From the NCBI RefSeq assembly GCF_024666525.1, contig NZ_CP088294.1:1860001-1924000 (forward strand): a stretch of DNA of 64,000 nt, given 5' to 3'. Positions within the stretch are counted from its first letter, which is position 1. Every line of letters starts with the position of its first letter. The notes below the pieces were generated by a model. The model was not told the origin of the DNA. It ran no database searches and was given only the letters and a program-made list of their open reading frames with translations. Source of the stretch: Pseudomonas sp. J452 (lineage in GTDB: Bacteria; Pseudomonadota; Gammaproteobacteria; Pseudomonadales; Pseudomonadaceae). Below are positions 11,750 to 21,633 of this stretch, in pieces. A program made the translations under genes and the position numbers.

Positions 11750-12847
11750 TCAGTAGTCGATGGCCACGTCGCTTTGCGGCACGCTGCAGCAGGACAGGAT
11801 GTAGCCTTCGGCGACGTCTTCGTCGGTGATCCCGCCGTTGTGCTCCATGCTCACTTCGCCGCTGGTCTTGAGCACCTTGCAGGTGCCGCAGATTCCCATG
11901 CCGCAGGCCTTGGGGATGTGCAGGCCGAGCTTGGCGGCGGCGGCGTGCACGGTCTCGCCGGCGCCGACGCGGATGCTCTTGCCGGTGCCGGTGAAGTCCA
12001 CCAGCTTGAGCGAGCCGGCCGGTGCTTCGGCGGCCTCGATTGCTTGCGCCGCGTGCTCCTGGGCTTCCTCGCGGATCGCCTGCGGGGTGGGGCCGAAGGC
12101 CTCCTCGTGGTAGCGGCGCATGTCGAAGCCGTTGCCCTCCAGCAGGCGCTTGATCGCCGCCATGTAGGGCGTCGGCCCGCAGCAGAAGATCTCCCGCTCC
12201 ATGAAGTCCGGCGCGATCAGCTGCAGCATCGGCTGGTTGAGGTAGCCGCGGTAGCCGGACCAGGTCTCGCCGATCTCGTACTTCTCGCAGATCAGGTGCA
12301 GCTTGAAGTTGTCGATGCGCGAGGCCATGTGGCGCAGTTCGCGGTGGTAGATGATGTCCTTCGGCGCCCGCGCGCTGTGCACGAAGACCATGTCGACGGC
12401 GCCGTTGGTGTCGAAGAACCAGCGCGCCATGGACATCACCGGGGTGATACCGACGCCGCCAGAGAGGAACAGCACCTTGTCCGCCGGGAAGTCGATGGCG
12501 TTGAACAGTCCGACCGGGCCGTGCACCGGCAGCACGTCACCCTCCTTGAGGTTGTCGTGCAGCCAGTTGGAAACCTTGCCGCCGGGCACGCGCTTGATGG
12601 TCAGGGAGAAGCTGTAGGGCACCGAGGGCGAGCTGGAGATGGTGTAGGAGCGCATGGTCGGCACGCCGTCGATCTGCAGTTCCAGGGTGACGAACTGCCC
12701 CGGCTTGAAGAAGAACACCATCGGCTGGTCGGCCATGAAGCAGAAGGTGCGTACATCCGAGGTTTCCTGGATGGCCTTGACGCAGCGCACCAGGTGGCGG
12801 CCATTGCTCCAGGTCTGGGTGGTCACCGGATTGAGGAAATTGGTCAT
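11750..12847 (-). CDS. gbcB: Glycine betaine demethylase reductase subunit
   Basis: GbcB passes electrons from NAD(P)H to the Rieske oxygenase GbcA, which removes one methyl from glycine betaine to give dimethylglycine and formaldehyde. The 365-residue protein has an FAD domain (RSYTISSSPS near residue 67), an NAD domain (SGGVGITPVMSM), and a C-terminal plant-type 2Fe-2S domain (CGMGICGTC plus a distal Cys in ILSCCSV). ATG at 12847 has GAGGTG just upstream; a GTG two codons earlier lacks its own site. It is divergent from gbcA. Confidence 0.95.
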   Translation of the reverse strand: MTNFLNPVTTQTWSNGRHLVRCVKAIQETSDVRTFCFMADQPMVFFFKPGQFVTLELQIDGVPTMRSYTISSSPSVPYSFSLTIKRVPGGKVSNWLHDNLKEGDVLPVHGPVGLFNAIDFPADKVLFLSGGVGITPVMSMARWFFDTNGAVDMVFVHSARAPKDIIYHRELRHMASRIDNFKLHLICEKYEIGETWSGYRGYLNQPMLQLIAPDFMEREIFCCGPTPYMAAIKRLLEGNGFDMRRYHEEAFGPTPQAIREEAQEHAAQAIEAAEAPAGSLKLVDFTGTGKSIRVGAGETVHAAAAKLGLHIPKACGMGICGTCKVLKTSGEVSMEHNGGITDEDVAEGYILSCCSVPQSDVAIDY

Positions 12848-13148
12848 GCTCACCTCTGTGTCGCGCTCTGGCCGCTGTCTGGTTGTGGCCCCGCCCAGGC
12901 ATGGGTTACGGGGCTCTCTGGCGACCGATTGTGCGCAACGGGCGGCGCGCTTATTTATCCATCCGCGACATTCGTGTGCTCATCGCGACCTGCCAGCGCG
13001 GCGCGGCCTGACGGCGTCGGAATCGGACGTGGTCGTGTCGTCCACGGATACGGATCGCCGGCAGCCGCGCGACACACTCGCTGCGAGCCGAGCGATAAGG
13101 TTTTCCCAGCGTATCGGCTCTCCTTTACCGCTTAAGACATTGATGAGG
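12848..13148. promoter_or_regulatory. Divergent gbcB-gbcA control region
   Basis: About 300 bases without a gene separate gbcB from the repeat tract before gbcA. GCGACA at 12965-12970 and GCGACC at 12985-12990 are direct-repeat half-sites like those upstream of glyA, and GCGACA recurs near 13069. Promoters for both genes should lie here. Binding by GbdR would be expected from P. aeruginosa, but the exact sites are inferred. Confidence 0.4.
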
Positions 13149-13398: not shown

Positions 13399-14685
13399 AT
13401 GGATAGCACCACCCTGAGCCTGGGCGACCCACTGGAGCCTGCACGCAAGGCCACCGCCGAGATGCTGCAAAGCCGCGAACGCACCTTCTCCCTGCCGCAG
13501 CCGTTCTACAACGACGAGCGCCTGTTCCAGATCGACATGCAGGAGATCTTCCACAAGGAATGGCTGATCGCCGGCATGACCTGCGAGATCCCCGGCAAGG
13601 GCAACTACCTGACCCTGCAGATCGGCGCCAACCCGATCATCGTCATCCGCGGCGCCGAAGGCACCGTGCACGCCTTCCACAACGTCTGCCGCCATCGCGG
13701 CTCGCGCCTGTGCACCAGCGACAAGGGCAAGGTGGCCAAGCTGGTCTGCCCCTACCACCAGTGGACCTACGAGATCGACGGCCGCCTGCTGTTCGCTGGC
13801 ACCGAGATGGGTGCCGACTTCGACCTCAAGGACTACAGCCTGAAGCCGGTCAACTGCAAGACCGCCGGTGGCTACATCTTCATCAGCCTGGCCGAGAACC
13901 CGCCGGCGATCGACGACTTCCTCGCCACCCTGGGCCATTACATGGAGCCCTACGACATGGAGAACACCAAGGTGGCGGTGCAGACCACCTTGATGGAGAA
14001 GGCCAACTGGAAACTGGTGCTGGAGAACAACCGTGAGTGCTACCACTGCAACGGTTCGCACCCGGAACTGCTGAATACCCTGCTGGAGTGGGACGACGTC
14101 ACCGACCCGCGCGCGACCCAGGCCTTCAAGGACCAGGTGGCCGAGTGCACCTCGCGCTGGGACCGCGACAACATTCCCTACGCCCATGCCAGCTTCGGCC
14201 TGCGCAACCGCATCGTGCGCATGCCGCTGCTCAAGGGCACCGTGTCCATGACCATGGACGGTAAACAGGGCAGCAAGAAGCTGATGGGCCGGATCACCGA
14301 CCCGGACCTCGGTTCGATGCGCATCCTGCACCTGCCGCATTCGTGGAACCACTGCATGGGCGATCACCTGATCGTGTTCACCGTGTGGCCGATCAGCGCC
14401 CAGGAAACCATGGTCACCACCAAGTGGCTGGTGCACAAGGACGCGGTGGAAGGCGTGGACTACGACATCGCCCGCCTGCGCGAAGTGTGGGATGCGACCA
14501 ACGACCAGGATCGGCGCCTGGCCGAGGAAAACCAGCGCGGTATCAACTCCACCGCCTACCAGCCGGGCCCCTACTCGAAGACCTACGAGTTCGGCGTGGT
14601 CAACTTCATCGACTGGTACAGCGAGCGCCTGCTGAACAACCTCGGCGCCGAGTCGGCAACCCATCTGCGCCAGGTCAACGATTGA
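13399..14685 (+). CDS. gbcA: Glycine betaine demethylase Rieske oxygenase subunit
   Basis: GbcA is the oxygenase that N-demethylates glycine betaine. The 428-residue product carries the Rieske 2Fe-2S ligands CRHRG and CPYHQW around residues 95-120. The mononuclear iron site is in the NRECYHCNGSHPE segment near residue 215. The ATG at 13399 follows GGAGCCACCG. It is transcribed divergently from gbcB and ends in a strong terminator. The remaining steps from dimethylglycine to sarcosine (DgcAB) are not in this window. Confidence 0.96.
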   Translation: MDSTTLSLGDPLEPARKATAEMLQSRERTFSLPQPFYNDERLFQIDMQEIFHKEWLIAGMTCEIPGKGNYLTLQIGANPIIVIRGAEGTVHAFHNVCRHRGSRLCTSDKGKVAKLVCPYHQWTYEIDGRLLFAGTEMGADFDLKDYSLKPVNCKTAGGYIFISLAENPPAIDDFLATLGHYMEPYDMENTKVAVQTTLMEKANWKLVLENNRECYHCNGSHPELLNTLLEWDDVTDPRATQAFKDQVAECTSRWDRDNIPYAHASFGLRNRIVRMPLLKGTVSMTMDGKQGSKKLMGRITDPDLGSMRILHLPHSWNHCMGDHLIVFTVWPISAQETMVTTKWLVHKDAVEGVDYDIARLREVWDATNDQDRRLAEENQRGINSTAYQPGPYSKTYEFGVVNFIDWYSERLLNNLGAESATHLRQVND

Positions 14686-14991: not shown

Positions 14992-15213
14992 CCGGACATG
15001 AAGACCGGGGCTATGAGGGGCCAACCTCACGCACCGAAGGTCAAGACTCGTTTGCAGCATCGCAGTTATACTCGCTCGCGCTTTGAGAGTCGGAGTATGC
15101 GATTTTCATTGCACTTCTCGTGCTGACGCGACAGAACCAAACTTATCCATTGCCCCGTCGACCCTTGAGATGGCGCGACAATCTACCTTTTCTAGACAGT
15201 GCTTCGGAGTCGT
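14992..15213. other. Left end of island, no gene
   Basis: Two hundred and twenty bases between the ppa fragment and the first island gene hold no frame I can support. The composition is visibly less GC-rich than its surroundings (for example TTATACTCGCTCGCGCTTTG). A promoter for the five-gene island operon should lie here, but none stands out. Confidence 0.5.
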
Positions 15214-18200
15214 ATGCAGGCCAGTAAGGTCGCCCCTGGGAAGTGGCGGGCACGGTTTTCGGGTTCGGGAACCTCATCGAGCTCCTTTCGTGATCCGTGG
15301 CGTTGGGACCTTGCGGTCTGCCTGCTACTCGGGCTGGCCGTCTTCCTGATCTACAACGCCAATCTGAGATCCATCGGCGCCGTCGATACCTATCCGGCGC
15401 GCTACCTGCCACTGTCGATCTTGAAACACCACAGTCTGGCGCTGGATCCGATCGCATCGCTCGTGGCACAGGGCAAGGAGGTTCCGACCGAGCCAGGAAA
15501 ATCGACCAGCGCGTTCTGGATGATCAAGAGCCACACGGGCAGCGTCGTCTCGCTATATCCCATCGTGACACCCGTGGTTGTCGCACCCTTGTACCTGCCG
15601 GCGGTTGCCTATCTCGATGCCAAGGGCTGGGATCTGCCGCGAGTCGATTATGTCGCCCGGATCATGGAGAAATTCTGCGCGTCGCTCATGGCATCGTTGT
15701 CGGCGATGCTTCTCTATCTGTTGCTGCGACGGCGCAGCCCGCCGACAACCGCAGTGCTGCTCACGATCGCATACGCGCTGGGAACGACGGCCTGGGTGAT
15801 CAGCAGCCAGGCCCTGTGGATGCATGGGCTCGCCGGGCTGCTGGTGGTCGCGCTGCTGTACCTGCTCACCGGGCCCTGCACACCGCTGCGTGCCCTCGGG
15901 GCCGGTCTTTTTTGTGCGCTCCTGGCTTGCAATCGCCAGCCCGACACAATTCTGGCCGCGGGCTTCGCGCTCTACGCGATCCGCTGGGCGGGGGGGCGCT
16001 TCCCATGGTTTCTCGGCGCTGCCTTAGTGCCGGTCGGGCTGGTGCTGGCTTATAACCTGCTCGTTGTGGGGCATATAGTCGGCGGCTACGGGCTGCTACC
16101 TCTGGAGAACGAGACCGCGCAGTTCGGCGAAGACCCGCTCTTCGGCCTCGGCGTGCTGCTGTTCAGTCCGGTCTACGGGCTTTTCGTCTTTTCGCCGTTC
16201 CTGCTGTTCGTGCCGTTCTTCCTGGTGTCAGTGCTGCGCGAGCGAAGTTCGCGCGCATTCACCCTGGTAGTTGGTGGCGCTCTGCTGTTGCAGTGGCTCT
16301 TCTACGGCGCGACGCATTGGGAGCAGGGCCTGAGCTGGGGGCCTCGCTACCTTACCGAGTCGATCCCCATCCTGGTGTGGATGCTGTCTCCGGTTTTCGA
16401 GCGTTTACGCATGATCGGCCGCGTCGTATTTTGCTTAGCGTGCCTTGTCGCGGTGGTCATCCAGGGAGTTGGCGCCTTCTACTACACGGGTAAGGCCTTC
16501 GGGGCGGCGATGTTTGCCAATGGGCCGGTCGTGACTCGTTCAACATGGGAGCAGCTGGTCTGGGACGTCGCCAATACGCCCTTTATCACTGAGCTTAAGC
16601 ATGAGCGAATTGCCCCCGACATCGGCGAGCTTCGGGGCCATATCAACGTGGCCGGAGCGCGTGACGAGGGTGATGGCCGGCGCCTAGTAGTCGCCGGCTG
16701 GGCGCTCATGGACGGCCGCACTCCGTCGGGTGTTGCGCTGATGGTGGATGGCCGGGTTGTGGTCGGCGGTACAGAGACCTTCTTCGAGCGTCCCGATGTA
16801 GTGAATGCGCTCGGCGAATCGGCTCCAAGCGGTTGGAGCGTGACGTTTCCTGCTGACACACTGGCGCCTGGGGAGCATGTGGTGACTGCGCTGGTGCGCG
16901 CTCATCCCTACGGCCAGCAACGCATGCTGGAGGCGCGCGGATTCACGGTTGCGAAGAGCGACCCCGCGCGCGTGAAACTTCGAGGCCAGATCGACGTGGC
17001 TGGGGCGCTCGACGAGAACGATAACCGGCGCATGGTGGTCAGCGGGTGGGCGCTTACGAACAACCACACGCCAGCGGACGTTGCGGTGATCGTGGATGGC
17101 CAGGTTGTGGGCAGCACTGAAGCTTTCATCGAGCGTCCCGACGTTGTGAGTGCGCTCGGCAAGTCAGCTCCAAGCGGTTGGCGCGTGACGTTTCCCGCTG
17201 ACGCATTGACGCCTGGGGAGCATGTGGTGACCGCGCTGGTGCGCGCTCATCCCGGCGGCCAGCAACGCATGCTGGAGGAACGCGGATTCACGGTCGCGAA
17301 GCGCGACCCCGAACGACTGGAACTTCAGGGTCAGATCGACGTGGCTGGAGCGCTCGACGAGAACGATAGCCAGCGCAGGGTGGTCATCGGGTGGGCGCTT
17401 GCGAACGACCACACGCCAGCGGACGTTGCGGTGATCGTGGATGGCCAGGTGGTGGGCAGCACTGAAGCTTTCTTCGAGCGCCCCGATGTTGTGAGTGCGC
17501 TCGGCAAGTCGGCTCCAAGCGGTTGGCGAGTGACGTTTCCCGCTGATGCATTGACGCCTGGGGAGCATGTGGTGACCGCGCAGGTGCGCGCTCAGCCCGG
17601 CGGCCCGCAACGCATGCTGGCAGCGCGCGGATTTACGGTCGCGAAGCGCGATCCCGCTCTTGTGGAGGCCGCCAGGCGTGCAGCGGCGATCCTCGCCGAG
17701 CGCCAGGATCGCCTTGGTTATTGGCTCAGCGAGTTCTCCAAGGCAACGCAATTCGTGCTGCAAGGGCAAGAGCTGAACATCTTCACCAACGCCGCTCTGA
17801 TCGATGTGGTTGCACCGGTTGCGCAGCAGAGTGGTCTCTCCGGCAGCATGGTACGGGCGCGCCAGTTTCTGACCAATCAGATCGAAGATAGTGGTTTGGT
17901 GCGCTACCACGGCCGCCCCGACCTGAAGACGATGGGTGTGCTGGGCTGCGTTATCACTCCCGATGCCGACGACACGGCTCTCGCGTGGCGCATCGCGCCA
18001 AGTGCTCGCTCGGAGCTGCTGCCGCGGGCACTGTCCACGCTCAAGCAGTTCCGCACGCCGGATGGACTCTATCAGACCTGGCTCGCGCCAAGGGACCGCT
18101 TCAGGTGCATCGATCCGGGCAAGAATCCGAATCCCCCCGACATTGGCATCCAGCTCCACGTCTACCTGTTGCTGGCGCAGGAGGACCCGCCTGCGGCTCG

Positions 18201-18678
18201 TGCGCTCTGCACGTCGTTGCAGCAACGCTCGGCCGACGAGTCGCTGTGGGTCTACTATCGCCTGGCGCCGCCCATCGTTCTCTTGCGTCTGAATGAAGTG
18301 AGCAAGGCGGGTTGCCCGTTGCAGCTGCCTGCGTCCCGGCTGCAAACCACGGTTGCGGGCCAGGACATATGGCTCGAACTCCTCGACCATCTGCGCCACT
18401 TCGAGACTGCGGACGATCTCTCCGCAGACCGTTCGGAGGCAGTAAGGCTGTTGCTGGGCAAGCTTGCCGTCGACAACTTCGCGTCCCTCAAAGGTAATCC
18501 GCCGCTGCTCTATCACAACGACCTGAGCGCGAGCGTGAGTCGCTACTACTGGTCCGAGGCGTTTGGCTATGCTCTCTGGCTCCGGCTCTATTACGAGAAT
18601 GAGCGCGCGCAATCTACAGTGGCGCACGGTGCCGGGGGCGGCGGGCAAGACTCCGAGAAAGGCAGCGCCAGGCCATGA
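15214..18678 (+). CDS. Giant membrane protein: GT-C-like domain, three tandem repeats, DxDDTA alpha-toroid domain
   Basis: I do not recognise a named gene. The 1154-residue product has three parts. Residues about 30-440 hold ten or more membrane spans with the look of a GT-C glycosyltransferase (VDTYPARYLPLSIL after the first span, GPRYLTESIP later). Residues about 473-818 are three repeats of 115-116 residues starting at 473, 589 and 704 (each with GWAL, VDG, ERPDVV and APSGW); repeats 2 and 3 are nearly identical. Residues about 825-1140 look like a terpenoid-cyclase-type alpha toroid with PDADDTA (D917, D919, D920). ATG at 15214 has GGAG five bases upstream. It overlaps the next gene by ATGA. 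Polymer or glycan modification is inference. Confidence 0.7.
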   Translation: MQASKVAPGKWRARFSGSGTSSSSFRDPWRWDLAVCLLLGLAVFLIYNANLRSIGAVDTYPARYLPLSILKHHSLALDPIASLVAQGKEVPTEPGKSTSAFWMIKSHTGSVVSLYPIVTPVVVAPLYLPAVAYLDAKGWDLPRVDYVARIMEKFCASLMASLSAMLLYLLLRRRSPPTTAVLLTIAYALGTTAWVISSQALWMHGLAGLLVVALLYLLTGPCTPLRALGAGLFCALLACNRQPDTILAAGFALYAIRWAGGRFPWFLGAALVPVGLVLAYNLLVVGHIVGGYGLLPLENETAQFGEDPLFGLGVLLFSPVYGLFVFSPFLLFVPFFLVSVLRERSSRAFTLVVGGALLLQWLFYGATHWEQGLSWGPRYLTESIPILVWMLSPVFERLRMIGRVVFCLACLVAVVIQGVGAFYYTGKAFGAAMFANGPVVTRSTWEQLVWDVANTPFITELKHERIAPDIGELRGHINVAGARDEGDGRRLVVAGWALMDGRTPSGVALMVDGRVVVGGTETFFERPDVVNALGESAPSGWSVTFPADTLAPGEHVVTALVRAHPYGQQRMLEARGFTVAKSDPARVKLRGQIDVAGALDENDNRRMVVSGWALTNNHTPADVAVIVDGQVVGSTEAFIERPDVVSALGKSAPSGWRVTFPADALTPGEHVVTALVRAHPGGQQRMLEERGFTVAKRDPERLELQGQIDVAGALDENDSQRRVVIGWALANDHTPADVAVIVDGQVVGSTEAFFERPDVVSALGKSAPSGWRVTFPADALTPGEHVVTAQVRAQPGGPQRMLAARGFTVAKRDPALVEAARRAAAILAERQDRLGYWLSEFSKATQFVLQGQELNIFTNAALIDVVAPVAQQSGLSGSMVRARQFLTNQIEDSGLVRYHGRPDLKTMGVLGCVITPDADDTALAWRIAPSARSELLPRALSTLKQFRTPDGLYQTWLAPRDRFRCIDPGKNPNPPDIGIQLHVYLLLAQEDPPAARALCTSLQQRSADESLWVYYRLAPPIVLLRLNEVSKAGCPLQLPASRLQTTVAGQDIWLELLDHLRHFETADDLSADRSEAVRLLLGKLAVDNFASLKGNPPLLYHNDLSASVSRYYWSEAFGYALWLRLYYENERAQSTVAHGAGGGGQDSEKGSARP

Positions 18679-19589
18679 CCGACACCGCTACGACGAATCT
18701 CCGTCTGCCGTTGGTGCGACAGTGGCTGCGCCTGCTGTCTTCCATCCGCTTCGACGAAGTCCTGGTGCTGCAAGGGACGCCGGCGATTGGGGCAATCCTG
18801 GCACTCGGCGCCCTGTCTGCTCACGACTGCCTCAGGGCTGTCGTCTTCGCCGCCGGCAGTCTGTGCCTGGTGGGGCATGTGTTCGTGATGAATGATTGGG
18901 CGGGCATCGATGGCGACCTCCGGGATCCGCACCGTGCTGCGCAGACGTTTGCGTCGAAAGGTGTGAGCCGCGGCGCCATCGGATTTCTTGCGGTCGTGCT
19001 CCTGGGGCTGACGCTGCTCCTGTTCGCCCTGCTGGGGCCGGTCTCGTTTGCCCTGGCGATTGCCATCCTGGGGCTGAGCACGCTCTATTCTGCCCCCTCG
19101 ATCCATATGAAGGGGCGTCCGGTTCTGGGCTCCAGCCTTCACCTCATGGGCGGCACGCTGCACTTCCTGCTCGGCTACGCGACCTTTTCCGCAGTCGACA
19201 CGCGCAGCATCGTCATTGGCTGCTTCTTCGGACTGATCTTCGCTGCCGGTCACCTCATGCACGAAACCCGCGGCTACGAGGGTGATCGGCTCAACGCTAT
19301 CCGCACCAATGCGGTCGCCTTCGGTAAGGCGCACAGCTTCATCGCGGGCATGGTCCTGTTCACTGCGGCTTATGCGCTGTTGATCGTGCTTGCTCTGCTC
19401 GGCCTGCTGCCGCGCCTGCTCATGCTCGCAGCCGTGCTTTACCCGGTGCATCTATATGCATCCTGGCGAGCCGTGCGTGCCGGCCTCAGTTTCGAGAGTC
19501 TGCTCCAGTACCAGAAATGCTATAGAGTGCTGTATGCCCTCATTGGCAGCATGCTGGTCGGGTCAGTCTTGTTTGCTTGGGTGAGCTAG
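18675..19589 (+). CDS. UbiA-family prenyltransferase
   Basis: This is a 304-residue polytopic protein with both UbiA Asp-rich motifs: NDWAGIDGDLRD (N73 to D84) and ETRGYEGDRLNAIRTNAVAFG-type sequence (E197 to D204). Such enzymes move a polyprenyl chain from its diphosphate to an aromatic or sugar-phosphate acceptor at the membrane. It is translationally coupled to the giant protein upstream (ATGA at 18675-18678) and followed by a polyprenyl-sugar type glycosyltransferase and GtrA. A role like decaprenyl-phosphate phosphoribose synthase is therefore possible. An aromatic acceptor cannot be excluded. It is clearly not the ubiquinone ubiA, which pairs with ubiC. Confidence 0.85.
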   Translation: MTDTATTNLRLPLVRQWLRLLSSIRFDEVLVLQGTPAIGAILALGALSAHDCLRAVVFAAGSLCLVGHVFVMNDWAGIDGDLRDPHRAAQTFASKGVSRGAIGFLAVVLLGLTLLLFALLGPVSFALAIAILGLSTLYSAPSIHMKGRPVLGSSLHLMGGTLHFLLGYATFSAVDTRSIVIGCFFGLIFAAGHLMHETRGYEGDRLNAIRTNAVAFGKAHSFIAGMVLFTAAYALLIVLALLGLLPRLLMLAAVLYPVHLYASWRAVRAGLSFESLLQYQKCYRVLYALIGSMLVGSVLFAWVS

Positions 19590-19676: not shown

Positions 19677-20648
19677 ATGAGCGCCACTTTCCCCAGCCTT
19701 GTCGTAGTCACCCCGGTCTTCGAGGATGCCGAAGCCTCTGCCCGCCTATTCGATGAGTTGGCTGCGGCTTTCGGCAAGCAGGTCTACGTGGTGGCGGTCG
19801 ACGACGGTTCGGTGCACCAACCGGTCGATCTCGCGAAGATGAATGCGGTCGGGCTCCACGGCACAGTTATCCGACTGCGCCGCAATGTCGGCCACCAGCG
19901 CGCCATTGCGATCGGCATCGGCTACGTGGCGGAGCATCTGGGCACGGCGCAGGTCGTGGTCATGGATTCTGACGGAGAGGATCTGCCCGGTTCGATTCCA
20001 GAGTTGCTGAGGGTGCTGAGCACACCTGATGTGGATCTGGTCGTTGCTCAGCGCAAGACGCGTGTTGAGACGCTTCGCTTCAAGGCTTTCTATTTTCTCT
20101 ACAAGCGGCTGTTCAAGGTATTGACCGGGCGAGAGATCAGCTTCGGCAACTTCATGGCGCTCAAGCCCGCAGCCGTCAAGCGTCTCGCCGCCATGCAGGA
20201 ACTCTGGATCCACGTCGCCAGTTGCGTGCTGGGGTCGAAGCTACGGATCCGTACCTGTGCACTCGATCGCGGCCCCCGCTACGCCGGTCAGAGCAAGATG
20301 AACTTTGCAGGCCTGGCGCTGCACGGGTTCCGCGGTGTAATGGTGTTCGCCGAAGACGTGCTGGTGCGTGTCGTGATCGCCTCGGCGCTGATCGGTGCGC
20401 TGGCGGTGGTCGCAGGTCTGGCAACCATTGTTCTCAAAGTGTCGGGTTTCGCTACCCCAGGCTGGTTCTCGGTGGCGCTAGGTATCCTGTCGCTGGTCTT
20501 CCTGCAAACCGGATCCCTGGCGCTGATCAGCCTCATGCTCGCCGGTGTCGGTAAATCTGGCGCGCTTGCGCATGCGCCCTATGCGCAGTTCATCGAGTAC
20601 GTCGAACACAGTGCCCCGTCGCCGACATGCAGCTCCGACAACCGATGA
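19677..20648 (+). CDS. GT2 glycosyltransferase with C-terminal membrane anchor (GtrB/DPM1-like)
   Basis: This inverting family 2 glycosyltransferase is likely to load a sugar onto polyprenyl phosphate. The 323-residue protein shows VVAVDDGS near residue 40, RRNVGHQRAIAIGIGY near residue 68, and the metal-binding segment VMDSDGEDLP near residue 97. Two C-terminal membrane spans (about 225-290) give the GtrB layout. It is preceded by an 88-base gap after the UbiA gene and overlaps the gtrA-type gene by ATGA. The nucleotide sugar it uses cannot be told from the sequence. Confidence 0.87.
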   Translation: MSATFPSLVVVTPVFEDAEASARLFDELAAAFGKQVYVVAVDDGSVHQPVDLAKMNAVGLHGTVIRLRRNVGHQRAIAIGIGYVAEHLGTAQVVVMDSDGEDLPGSIPELLRVLSTPDVDLVVAQRKTRVETLRFKAFYFLYKRLFKVLTGREISFGNFMALKPAAVKRLAAMQELWIHVASCVLGSKLRIRTCALDRGPRYAGQSKMNFAGLALHGFRGVMVFAEDVLVRVVIASALIGALAVVAGLATIVLKVSGFATPGWFSVALGILSLVFLQTGSLALISLMLAGVGKSGALAHAPYAQFIEYVEHSAPSPTCSSDNR

Positions 20649-21040
20649 GTCTGGATTCGCGCGCCGCGGAGGTCGGGCGTTTCGTCATCAACGGCCTGTT
20701 TGCCACGGCGGTGCACTATGCCGCCCTGATCTTCAATCTCCGGGTGCTCGAACTCCCGTCGGCAGGCCTGGCCAATTTTTTCGCTGCCTGGTGTGGCATT
20801 GCTGCCTCTTTCATCGGTAGCCGCTTCTTCGTCTTTCGGAGCCGGGAGGCGCCGCTGGCGCGCCAGGCCACGCGCTTTCTCGCGTCCTATGCCGCGATTG
20901 CCTGTCTGCACGGGCTTTTGCTCTACGTCTGGACGGATCAGCTGCAGCGGGACTACGCCGTGGGGCTCGTCCTGGCCGCGATGATGCAGGCCGTGTTGAG
21001 CTACCTGGGCAACAAGTTATTGGTGTTCAGAACAGCATGA
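20645..21040 (+). CDS. GtrA-family polyprenyl-phosphate-sugar flippase
   Basis: This 131-residue protein with four predicted membrane spans has the GtrA pattern: EVGRFVINGLFATAVHY at the N-terminus, FIGSRFFVFRS in the middle and YLGNKLLVF at the end. GtrA proteins are thought to flip lipid-linked monosaccharides to the outer face. The ATG at 20645 overlaps the GT2 stop; another ATG at 20627 lies inside that gene. Together with the GT2 it forms the usual GtrA/GtrB pair, and the giant GT-C-like protein may be the final transferase. Confidence 0.88.
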   Translation: MSLDSRAAEVGRFVINGLFATAVHYAALIFNLRVLELPSAGLANFFAAWCGIAASFIGSRFFVFRSREAPLARQATRFLASYAAIACLHGLLLYVWTDQLQRDYAVGLVLAAMMQAVLSYLGNKLLVFRTA

Positions 21041-21633
21041 AGACAGGGAAATTCCTCACCGCTTCTATATTCTTCGTGGCGCTTACCGGCCTGATCTACT
21101 GGGCTCATGTCGCTTTCTTCCGGGTCGACGTGGTTTTTTACAGCGCGCTCCTCGATGGCGTTCTGGCCGCTTTGATCGCCGGTGTAGTCATTTGGCGTAT
21201 GCACACCTTCGCCGTCTTTGGGCCCTTCGAGAAACTGCAGATGGTGCTGATCTGGCTGCTGACGGCCTACATACTCGCCATCTCGGTGCCGACCGTGGTC
21301 GATCGTTCGCTGTCCTTCTATATCCTTGAGAAACTGCAGCAGCGCGGTGGCGCGATTCAGCAAAGCCGCTTCGCCGAGGTCTTCACCCAGGAGTACCTCA
21401 AGGAGCATCGACTGGTCGACGTGCGCCTGACCGAGCAGCTCCAGTCGGGCACCATTCGCATCGTGAATGGCTGTGTCCACCTGACGCCCAGGGGCGACCA
21501 TCTGGCGAGTTTCAGCCGCTTTTTCCGCACTCATCTGCTGCCCAAGCAGCGACTGTTGCTCGGCAGTTACAGCGACGATTTGACCGACCCGTTCCGGCAC
21601 AGCGCTACGCAGGCCGATTACTTCTGCCAGTAA
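21037..21633 (+). CDS. Unknown membrane protein of the island
   Basis: I do not recognise this 198-residue protein. It has about three hydrophobic segments in the first half (ASIFFVALTGLIYWAHVAFF, then ALLDGVLAALIAGVVIW, then MVLIWLLTAYILAISV). A soluble C-terminal half of about 100 residues contains FTQEYLKEHRLVDVRLTEQL and a HLTPRGDHLASFSRFF stretch. It overlaps the gtrA-type gene by ATGA, so it belongs to the same operon, and it is the last gene before the right repeat. It may be an accessory subunit of the glycosylation machinery. Confidence 0.7.
   Translation: MKTGKFLTASIFFVALTGLIYWAHVAFFRVDVVFYSALLDGVLAALIAGVVIWRMHTFAVFGPFEKLQMVLIWLLTAYILAISVPTVVDRSLSFYILEKLQQRGGAIQQSRFAEVFTQEYLKEHRLVDVRLTEQLQSGTIRIVNGCVHLTPRGDHLASFSRFFRTHLLPKQRLLLGSYSDDLTDPFRHSATQADYFCQ

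Follow-up and report, generated by a model that had tools for sequence, protein, structure and literature searches.

We analyzed a stretch of 64,000 nucleotides from Pseudomonas sp. J452 (contig NZ_CP088294.1, positions 1,860,001 to 1,924,000 of the forward strand), hereafter called the window, and describe here a fused membrane protein encoded on its plus strand at 15214..18678, together with the UbiA-superfamily gene that follows it. The open frame can also be read from a GTG at 15199 (15199-18678, 1159 amino acids), and residue numbers are counted from that codon. Judged from an alignment of 121 sequences, the ATG at 15214 is the likelier start, because most of them show gaps where the GTG reading has its residues 1-4. 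The protein is composed of a GT-C half (residues 31-470, 15289..16608), three immunoglobulin-like (Ig-like) repeats (residues 478-589, 16630..16965; residues 594-704, 16978..17310; residues 709-816, 17323..17646) and a predicted alpha toroid (residues 819-1140, 17653..18618). A preliminary description of this DNA had proposed the three-part architecture with tandem repeats and a PDADDTA motif, and all of these elements were located in the frame, the motif at residues 921-927. It had also called a UbiA gene coupled to the fused gene, and the start of the UbiA gene at 18675 indeed overlaps the stop codon as ATGA. When the fused protein was scanned with Pfam, only the Ig-like family Big_7 (PF17957), the best match of the second repeat, exceeded its cut-off, and an NCBIfam model for an LA_3751/LA_3752-type putative glycosyltransferase matched the N-terminal half at 56.9 against a cut-off of 200 bits, far below threshold. 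The pairwise DNA identities of the repeats are 83% (1-2), 81% (1-3) and 92% (2-3), the last of which points to a recent tandem duplication of repeats 2 and 3. By a crude marker count, one repeat is present in 92 of the 120 listed homologues, two in 9, three in 1 and none in 18.

The C-terminal part was modelled as an alpha toroid with a mean pLDDT of 92.4 and a pTM of 0.90. The preliminary description had taken it for a cyclase-type toroid and had named structure prediction as the check, any other fold counting against it; an alpha toroid was returned, and the fold comparison agrees with the cyclase type. When we searched for similar folds with the toroid, the best match was to the drimenol synthases of the AsDMS type (HAD-TCbeta), and the 30 entries ranking above the first carbohydrate entry were terpene-cyclase-type by title, save the unnamed 6ij1. 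As far as the model can tell, the toroid belongs to the beta type of the class II terpene cyclases. The AsDMS/HAD-TCbeta structures (PDB 9m7d/e/f, 9mhs) likewise contain a lone terpene-cyclase beta toroid fused to a second enzyme domain, with a similar acid motif and tyrosine spacing, but they share only 12% identity with the window toroid in the structural alignment. Moreover, AsDMS has a HAD phosphatase as partner and DxDTT as its motif, whereas the window protein has a GT-C membrane partner and a toroid that is probably periplasmic. The merosterolic acid synthase MstE, which was crystallized with prenylated dihydroxybenzoates according to the PDB titles, and the squalene-hopene-type cyclases of about 345 residues (6sbb-6sbg, 8paj, 8pak) also consist of one toroid, but their identity is about 15% and their chains of 342-352 residues have no membrane half. 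Among the literature matches listed for AprG, nothing was found on a squalene-hopene cyclase (SHC)-like fold.

In two protein searches, 1190 of 7996 scored candidates were homologues of the whole protein and 546 of 7999 of the toroid alone, and the best 120 from each search were listed. A motif scan of genome contigs gave 73 named loci labelled as Pseudomonadota, Acidobacteriota, Chloroflexota, Verrucomicrobiota, Planctomycetota, Actinomycetota and Thermodesulfobacteriota, seven phyla in all; many of these loci are metagenome-assembled genomes, whose taxon labels may err. The comparisons below use 70 rows for the toroid and 68 for UbiA, made up of the window and those loci with a tblastn match over more than 75% of the query; 4 and 6 of the 73 loci, respectively, are thus missing.

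The acid motif DxDDT is present in at least 235 of the 240 listed homologues, and D922, D924, D925 and T926 (D922-D925, 17962..17973) are found in all 70 toroid rows. The latter count is partly by construction, because one of the two fetching patterns was ITPD[AST]DDT, and this is offset by the former, obtained in the protein searches. W1017, Y1019 and Y1020 of the WVYY segment (residues 1017-1020, 18247..18258) are also present in 70 of 70 rows, the tyrosine count being independent of the fetching pattern. The letters of the motif can arise by chance, as the unrelated isochorismatase 2fq1 contains TPDADDTVLV, and we rejected the motif alone as proof of a cyclase; in this family, however, its recurrence as DxDDT among the listed homologues exceeds chance. 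In the available excerpts, the motif of AsDMS is given as DxDTT at residues 331-335 (PMC9128629), and the enzyme is described as inactive without D331, D333, Y426 or Y427, D333 being the acid activated by Y427 (PMC12365925). Y1019 and Y1020 follow D924 by 95 and 96 residues, and in AsDMS Y427 follows D333 by 94. By this analogy D924 would be the general acid corresponding to D333, and Y1019/Y1020 are candidate acid-activating tyrosines, counterparts of Y426/Y427. This residue correspondence with AsDMS is drawn from the fold, the motif and the spacing, because profile searches and hhalign gave no supporting alignment. Invariant residues are enriched at the N-termini of the helices labelled inner (13 of 43, expected 6.6, p 0.006) and not at those of the outer helices (2 of 43, expected 7.1), with the inner and outer labels deduced from helix order and both labels and position window set after the pattern was seen.

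The N-terminal half had been described as GT-C-like, and the fold comparison of the model agrees: residues 31-470 are predicted to adopt the GT-C membrane fold of ALG12, STT3/PglB/AglB, ArnT and AftB, with which they share an Asp in the first periplasmic loop. At least 97% of the 121 sequences in the alignment have this residue, D63 (15385-15387), and its side of the membrane follows from the predicted topology. We know of no terpene-cyclase-type toroid on any of these glycosyltransferases. When hydropathy and charge were averaged over the window protein and 120 listed homologues and laid on the model helices, the profile fitted 11 membrane helices, the cytoplasmic loops being basic and those on the outside conserved; the helix near residues 123-142 was judged non-spanning. 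From these basic and conserved loops we infer an N-in, C-out orientation, so that the toroid probably lies on the periplasmic side. In addition, 50 of the 120 proteins listed from the toroid-only search begin no more than 75 residues from the GYW motif of the toroid, and by a crude measure the N-terminus is strongly hydrophobic in 28 of those 50, in several with an AxA-like end. These N-termini support a periplasmic toroid without proving it, and many of the proteins lie on short metagenome contigs. In two surveys, the toroid frames of matching genomes were at least 888 amino acids long, and in a third this held for 11 of 13, the rest being a frame of 724 and a fragment of 87 amino acids.

The UbiA-superfamily gene downstream of the fused gene (18675..19589, plus strand) matches PF01040 with an E-value of 8.7e-22 and 78 bits against a cut-off of 34.2. 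The link between toroid and UbiA noticed in the window proved far more general, since a UbiA gene was found in 69 of the 73 loci, downstream on the same strand in 67, adjacent on the opposite strand in one and upstream in one (L074). UbiA was not detected in L025, L066, L073 and L075; in L066 and L075 the contig ends within the toroid frame, and 1.6 kb is left in L073. The opposite-strand gene (L036:10974-11945) belongs to a locus labelled Betaproteobacteria whose toroid falls within an Acidobacteriota clade, perhaps a mis-binned contig. The genome of the window has one copy of the fused protein and two further UbiA genes, and gave no match to the cyclase family PF13243.

The toroid and UbiA stay together while the membrane half is exchanged. 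In six loci (L023, L042, L048, L059, L062, L064) the membrane half gave no tblastn match to the GT-C half of the window, and L074 has a third kind of membrane half, with DUF6077. In a quick tree of the toroids these six group as a single clade (SH-aLRT 100), which does not include L074. The membrane half of L048 shows a sub-threshold PMT_2 match, and those of L023, L059 and L062, which have no Pfam match, are likely GT-C in nature. The GT-C half, in turn, has relatives that lack a toroid. Around ten such relatives, hand-picked from a longer list and 33-66% identical to the family, no UbiA was found, L159 and L161 lying near contig ends. Near one toroid-less relative there is a 34-residue toroid-like fragment (L158:9378-9479, 74% identity), possibly a remnant.

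The UbiA protein itself resembles prenyltransferases. When a profile of 28 UbiA members was searched against the PDB, it matched AfUbiA (4tq3, E 3.4e-8) and DGGGP synthase (6m31, E 1.4e-7), and no phosphoribosyltransferase up to E 10; two prenyltransferase models matched 28 of 28 members, against 4 and 2 of 28 for phosphoribosyltransferase models. As in those prenyltransferases, two acidic motifs are present, with N73, D74, D81, E197 and D204 in all 68 rows. Unlike them, the family mostly lacks the second Asp of NDxxDxxxD (position 77), which is Gly in 65 of 68 rows, and it was found here beside a toroid.

With about even confidence, we suggest that the fused protein is a membrane-tethered, periplasm-facing GT-C and cyclase-type toroid whose product is a glycosylated cyclized terpenoid or meroterpenoid. 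The UbiA protein would make or further process a prenylated membrane substrate, and the toroid would cyclize the prenylated molecule from the periplasmic side, D924 of PDADDTA protonating a prenyl double bond with the aid of Y1019/Y1020 and the conserved Trp and Tyr residues presumably lining the pocket. The GT-C half would add a sugar, transferred on the periplasmic side from a polyprenyl-phosphate donor that, in the window genome, is probably supplied by the GtrB-like and GtrA-like genes downstream, yielding a cyclized product glycosylated at the envelope. UbiA and the cyclase-type toroid both speak of prenyl chemistry and remain paired when the membrane half is exchanged, and this scheme seems to us the simplest account. 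The computation itself shows the domain order, the two folds, the conserved acid motif, the close linkage of toroid and UbiA and the exchange of membrane halves, and from these we deduce the periplasmic side, the roles of the residues, the lining of the pocket and the order of reactions. Each part is of a familiar kind; it is their combination, with the probable periplasmic side and the tight tie to UbiA, that did not appear among the open-licence literature matches listed. More tentatively, there may be widespread modular extracytoplasmic terpene cyclases, in which a UbiA-prenylated lipid is cyclized on the periplasmic side by a class II toroid carried on exchangeable membrane glycosyltransferases and glycosylated by the GT-C half, to give so far undescribed envelope glyco-terpenoids. 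The gene fusion and its UbiA neighbour suggest an undescribed route to molecules of terpene and sugar at the cell surface. In the open-licence literature, the fusion was not described in the matches listed, as far as titles and the beginnings of abstracts tell, and nothing was found on a periplasmic or secreted terpene cyclase. A periplasmic-side toroid with UbiA, three kinds of membrane half and labels from seven phyla would point to a hitherto unknown class of surface terpenoid glycoconjugates, and toroid plus UbiA make a compact, testable two-gene system.

A number of observations weigh against this proposal. First, no relation to known cyclases is visible at the sequence level: the Pfam terpene and prenyl families (SQHop_cyclase, Prenyltrans) gave no match at E <= 1 in the window protein and 61 members of the set A1, PDB profile searches with the toroid missed the known terpene cyclases, and hhalign of the toroid against three SHC-type genes gave a probability of 3.8% over the N-terminal part only. 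The toroid may thus work like a class II cyclase yet fall in no known sequence subfamily. Second, AsDMS also requires Y319, Y373 and R378 (excerpt of PMC12365925), whose counterparts were not mapped in the window toroid, and the conserved residues of the toroid include not only Trp and Tyr but also many polar ones (E896, R902, D981, D1108). Third, terpene cyclization is regarded as cytoplasmic chemistry, we know of no class II cyclase outside the cytoplasm, and no free-standing toroid with a signal peptide was met in the genomes searched. Fourth, one locus is a clear exception to the pairing, as L025:4752-7388 encodes the complete fused protein, yet UbiA was not detected in the 8.5 kb downstream. 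Nor does co-divergence single out UbiA, because the Mantel distance correlation between toroid and UbiA (r 0.82, 67 rows) is equalled or exceeded by that between toroid and GT half (r 0.89, 57 rows); such values are expected for co-inherited genes. The chemistry of this UbiA may also be unusual in donor or acceptor, because Gly replaces the second Asp of its first motif. Finally, the neighbouring genes lean to a surface glycan or glycolipid as destination. Of 161 neighbour genes picked across 32 loci, 100 were scanned, with matches to GT2 in 13, to a methyltransferase domain in 6, to ABC ATPases in 4 and to GT1 glycosyltransferases in 4, and terpene families are absent from the 25 most frequent of the 126 families. 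An ABC-ATPase group occurs in 14 loci, its example looking like a polysaccharide exporter by eye; the clustering used a home-made gene caller, and its largest group (47 loci), a single-linkage cluster, was left uninterpreted.

The chief rival has a modest chance of being right: the toroid would act on carbohydrate, as a hydrolase, epimerase or other enzyme, trimming or remodelling a glycan made by the GT-C half, and UbiA would merely supply the lipid carrier. The terpene-cyclase titles at the head of the fold list argue against it, the DxDD motif and the spacing to the two tyrosines fit class II cyclases, and it leaves the company that a prenyltransferase-type UbiA keeps with the toroid unexplained.

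A second rival, which we regard as unlikely, takes UbiA for a polyprenyl-phosphate phosphoribosyltransferase that serves as donor synthase in a pentofuranose side-chain system together with the GT-C half, the toroid being an accessory. In its general outline of lipid-linked sugar synthesis, flipping and periplasmic transfer, the locus does resemble the GtrA/GtrB/GT-C and UbiA-based three-component glycosylation presented in the excerpt of PMC11127046, but the window family has a toroid and a UbiA of prenyltransferase rather than phosphoribosyltransferase type. The model matches and the PDB profile search given above weaken this assignment, as does the Gly at the second Asp, by which the family departs from the all-Asp NDxxDxxxD of DPPRS/PPPRS. 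The Asp concerned matches D251 of ORF15, whose Ala mutant had no in vitro activity (PMC11127046, excerpt). The ten toroid-less GT-C relatives with no UbiA found nearby also speak against this reading.

We consider it more unlikely still that the toroid serves for binding or docking without being a catalyst, the Ig repeats acting as a spacer, in an arrangement like that of the complement/TEP proteins with their thioester-bearing toroid, even though a Foldseek search with the whole model placed TEP1s at the top (E 5.9e-6). Complement-type proteins probably rank high because Ig-like domains and a toroid (residues 478-1140, 16630-18618) recur there, and their rows (TEP1s, C3) have TM-scores of 0.16 or less over the query, with 0.15-0.16 for the top row; the acid motif and many polar and aromatic residues are conserved across the family, and free toroids without Ig or GT-C parts exist among metagenome proteins. 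Least probable is a reversed order, in which the toroid makes a cyclized prenyl intermediate and UbiA then acts as a UbiA-type terpene cyclase, since this UbiA resembles prenyltransferases of known type and UbiA active sites, to our knowledge, face the cytoplasm, opposite to the probable side of the toroid.

Beyond the proposed cyclase pair, the fused gene and the next four genes, up to 21633, all lie on the plus strand. UbiA is followed by a GT2 polyprenyl-phosphate-sugar-synthase-like, GtrB-like gene (19677..20648), an overlapping gene for a GtrA-like flippase candidate (20627..21040; PF04138, E 3.5e-18) and a gene for a 198-amino-acid membrane protein (21037..21633), which overlaps the GtrA-like gene as ATGA and matched neither a Pfam nor an NCBIfam model at E <= 1. 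The preliminary description had counted GtrA and GtrB as parts of the system. This did not hold for the family: within the fetched stretches (flanks of up to 10 kb), 7 of the 73 loci have a GT2 match and 3 a GtrA match, and we rejected the pair as a family-wide component. Seven of the 73 loci have relatives of the 198-residue protein, and these are the loci with the GT2 match. A promoter scan gave 0 sites, and the 8 terminator-like sites found are near background (shuffled mean 6.5).

The occurrence of the fused protein is patchy, with 2 carriers among 57 relatives (the genome of the window included), 6 among 297 genomes in the phylum of genome G058, 13 among 148 in the class of G058 and 6 among 197 in the family of G067; these counts are not unbiased frequencies, since some surveyed genomes were already known to carry the protein and served as centres. 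Upstream of the fused gene, a ferredoxin-reductase-type gene (11750-12853, minus strand) and a Rieske ring-hydroxylase-type gene (13399-14685, plus strand) form an oxygenase pair by Pfam, apparently unrelated to the fused gene.

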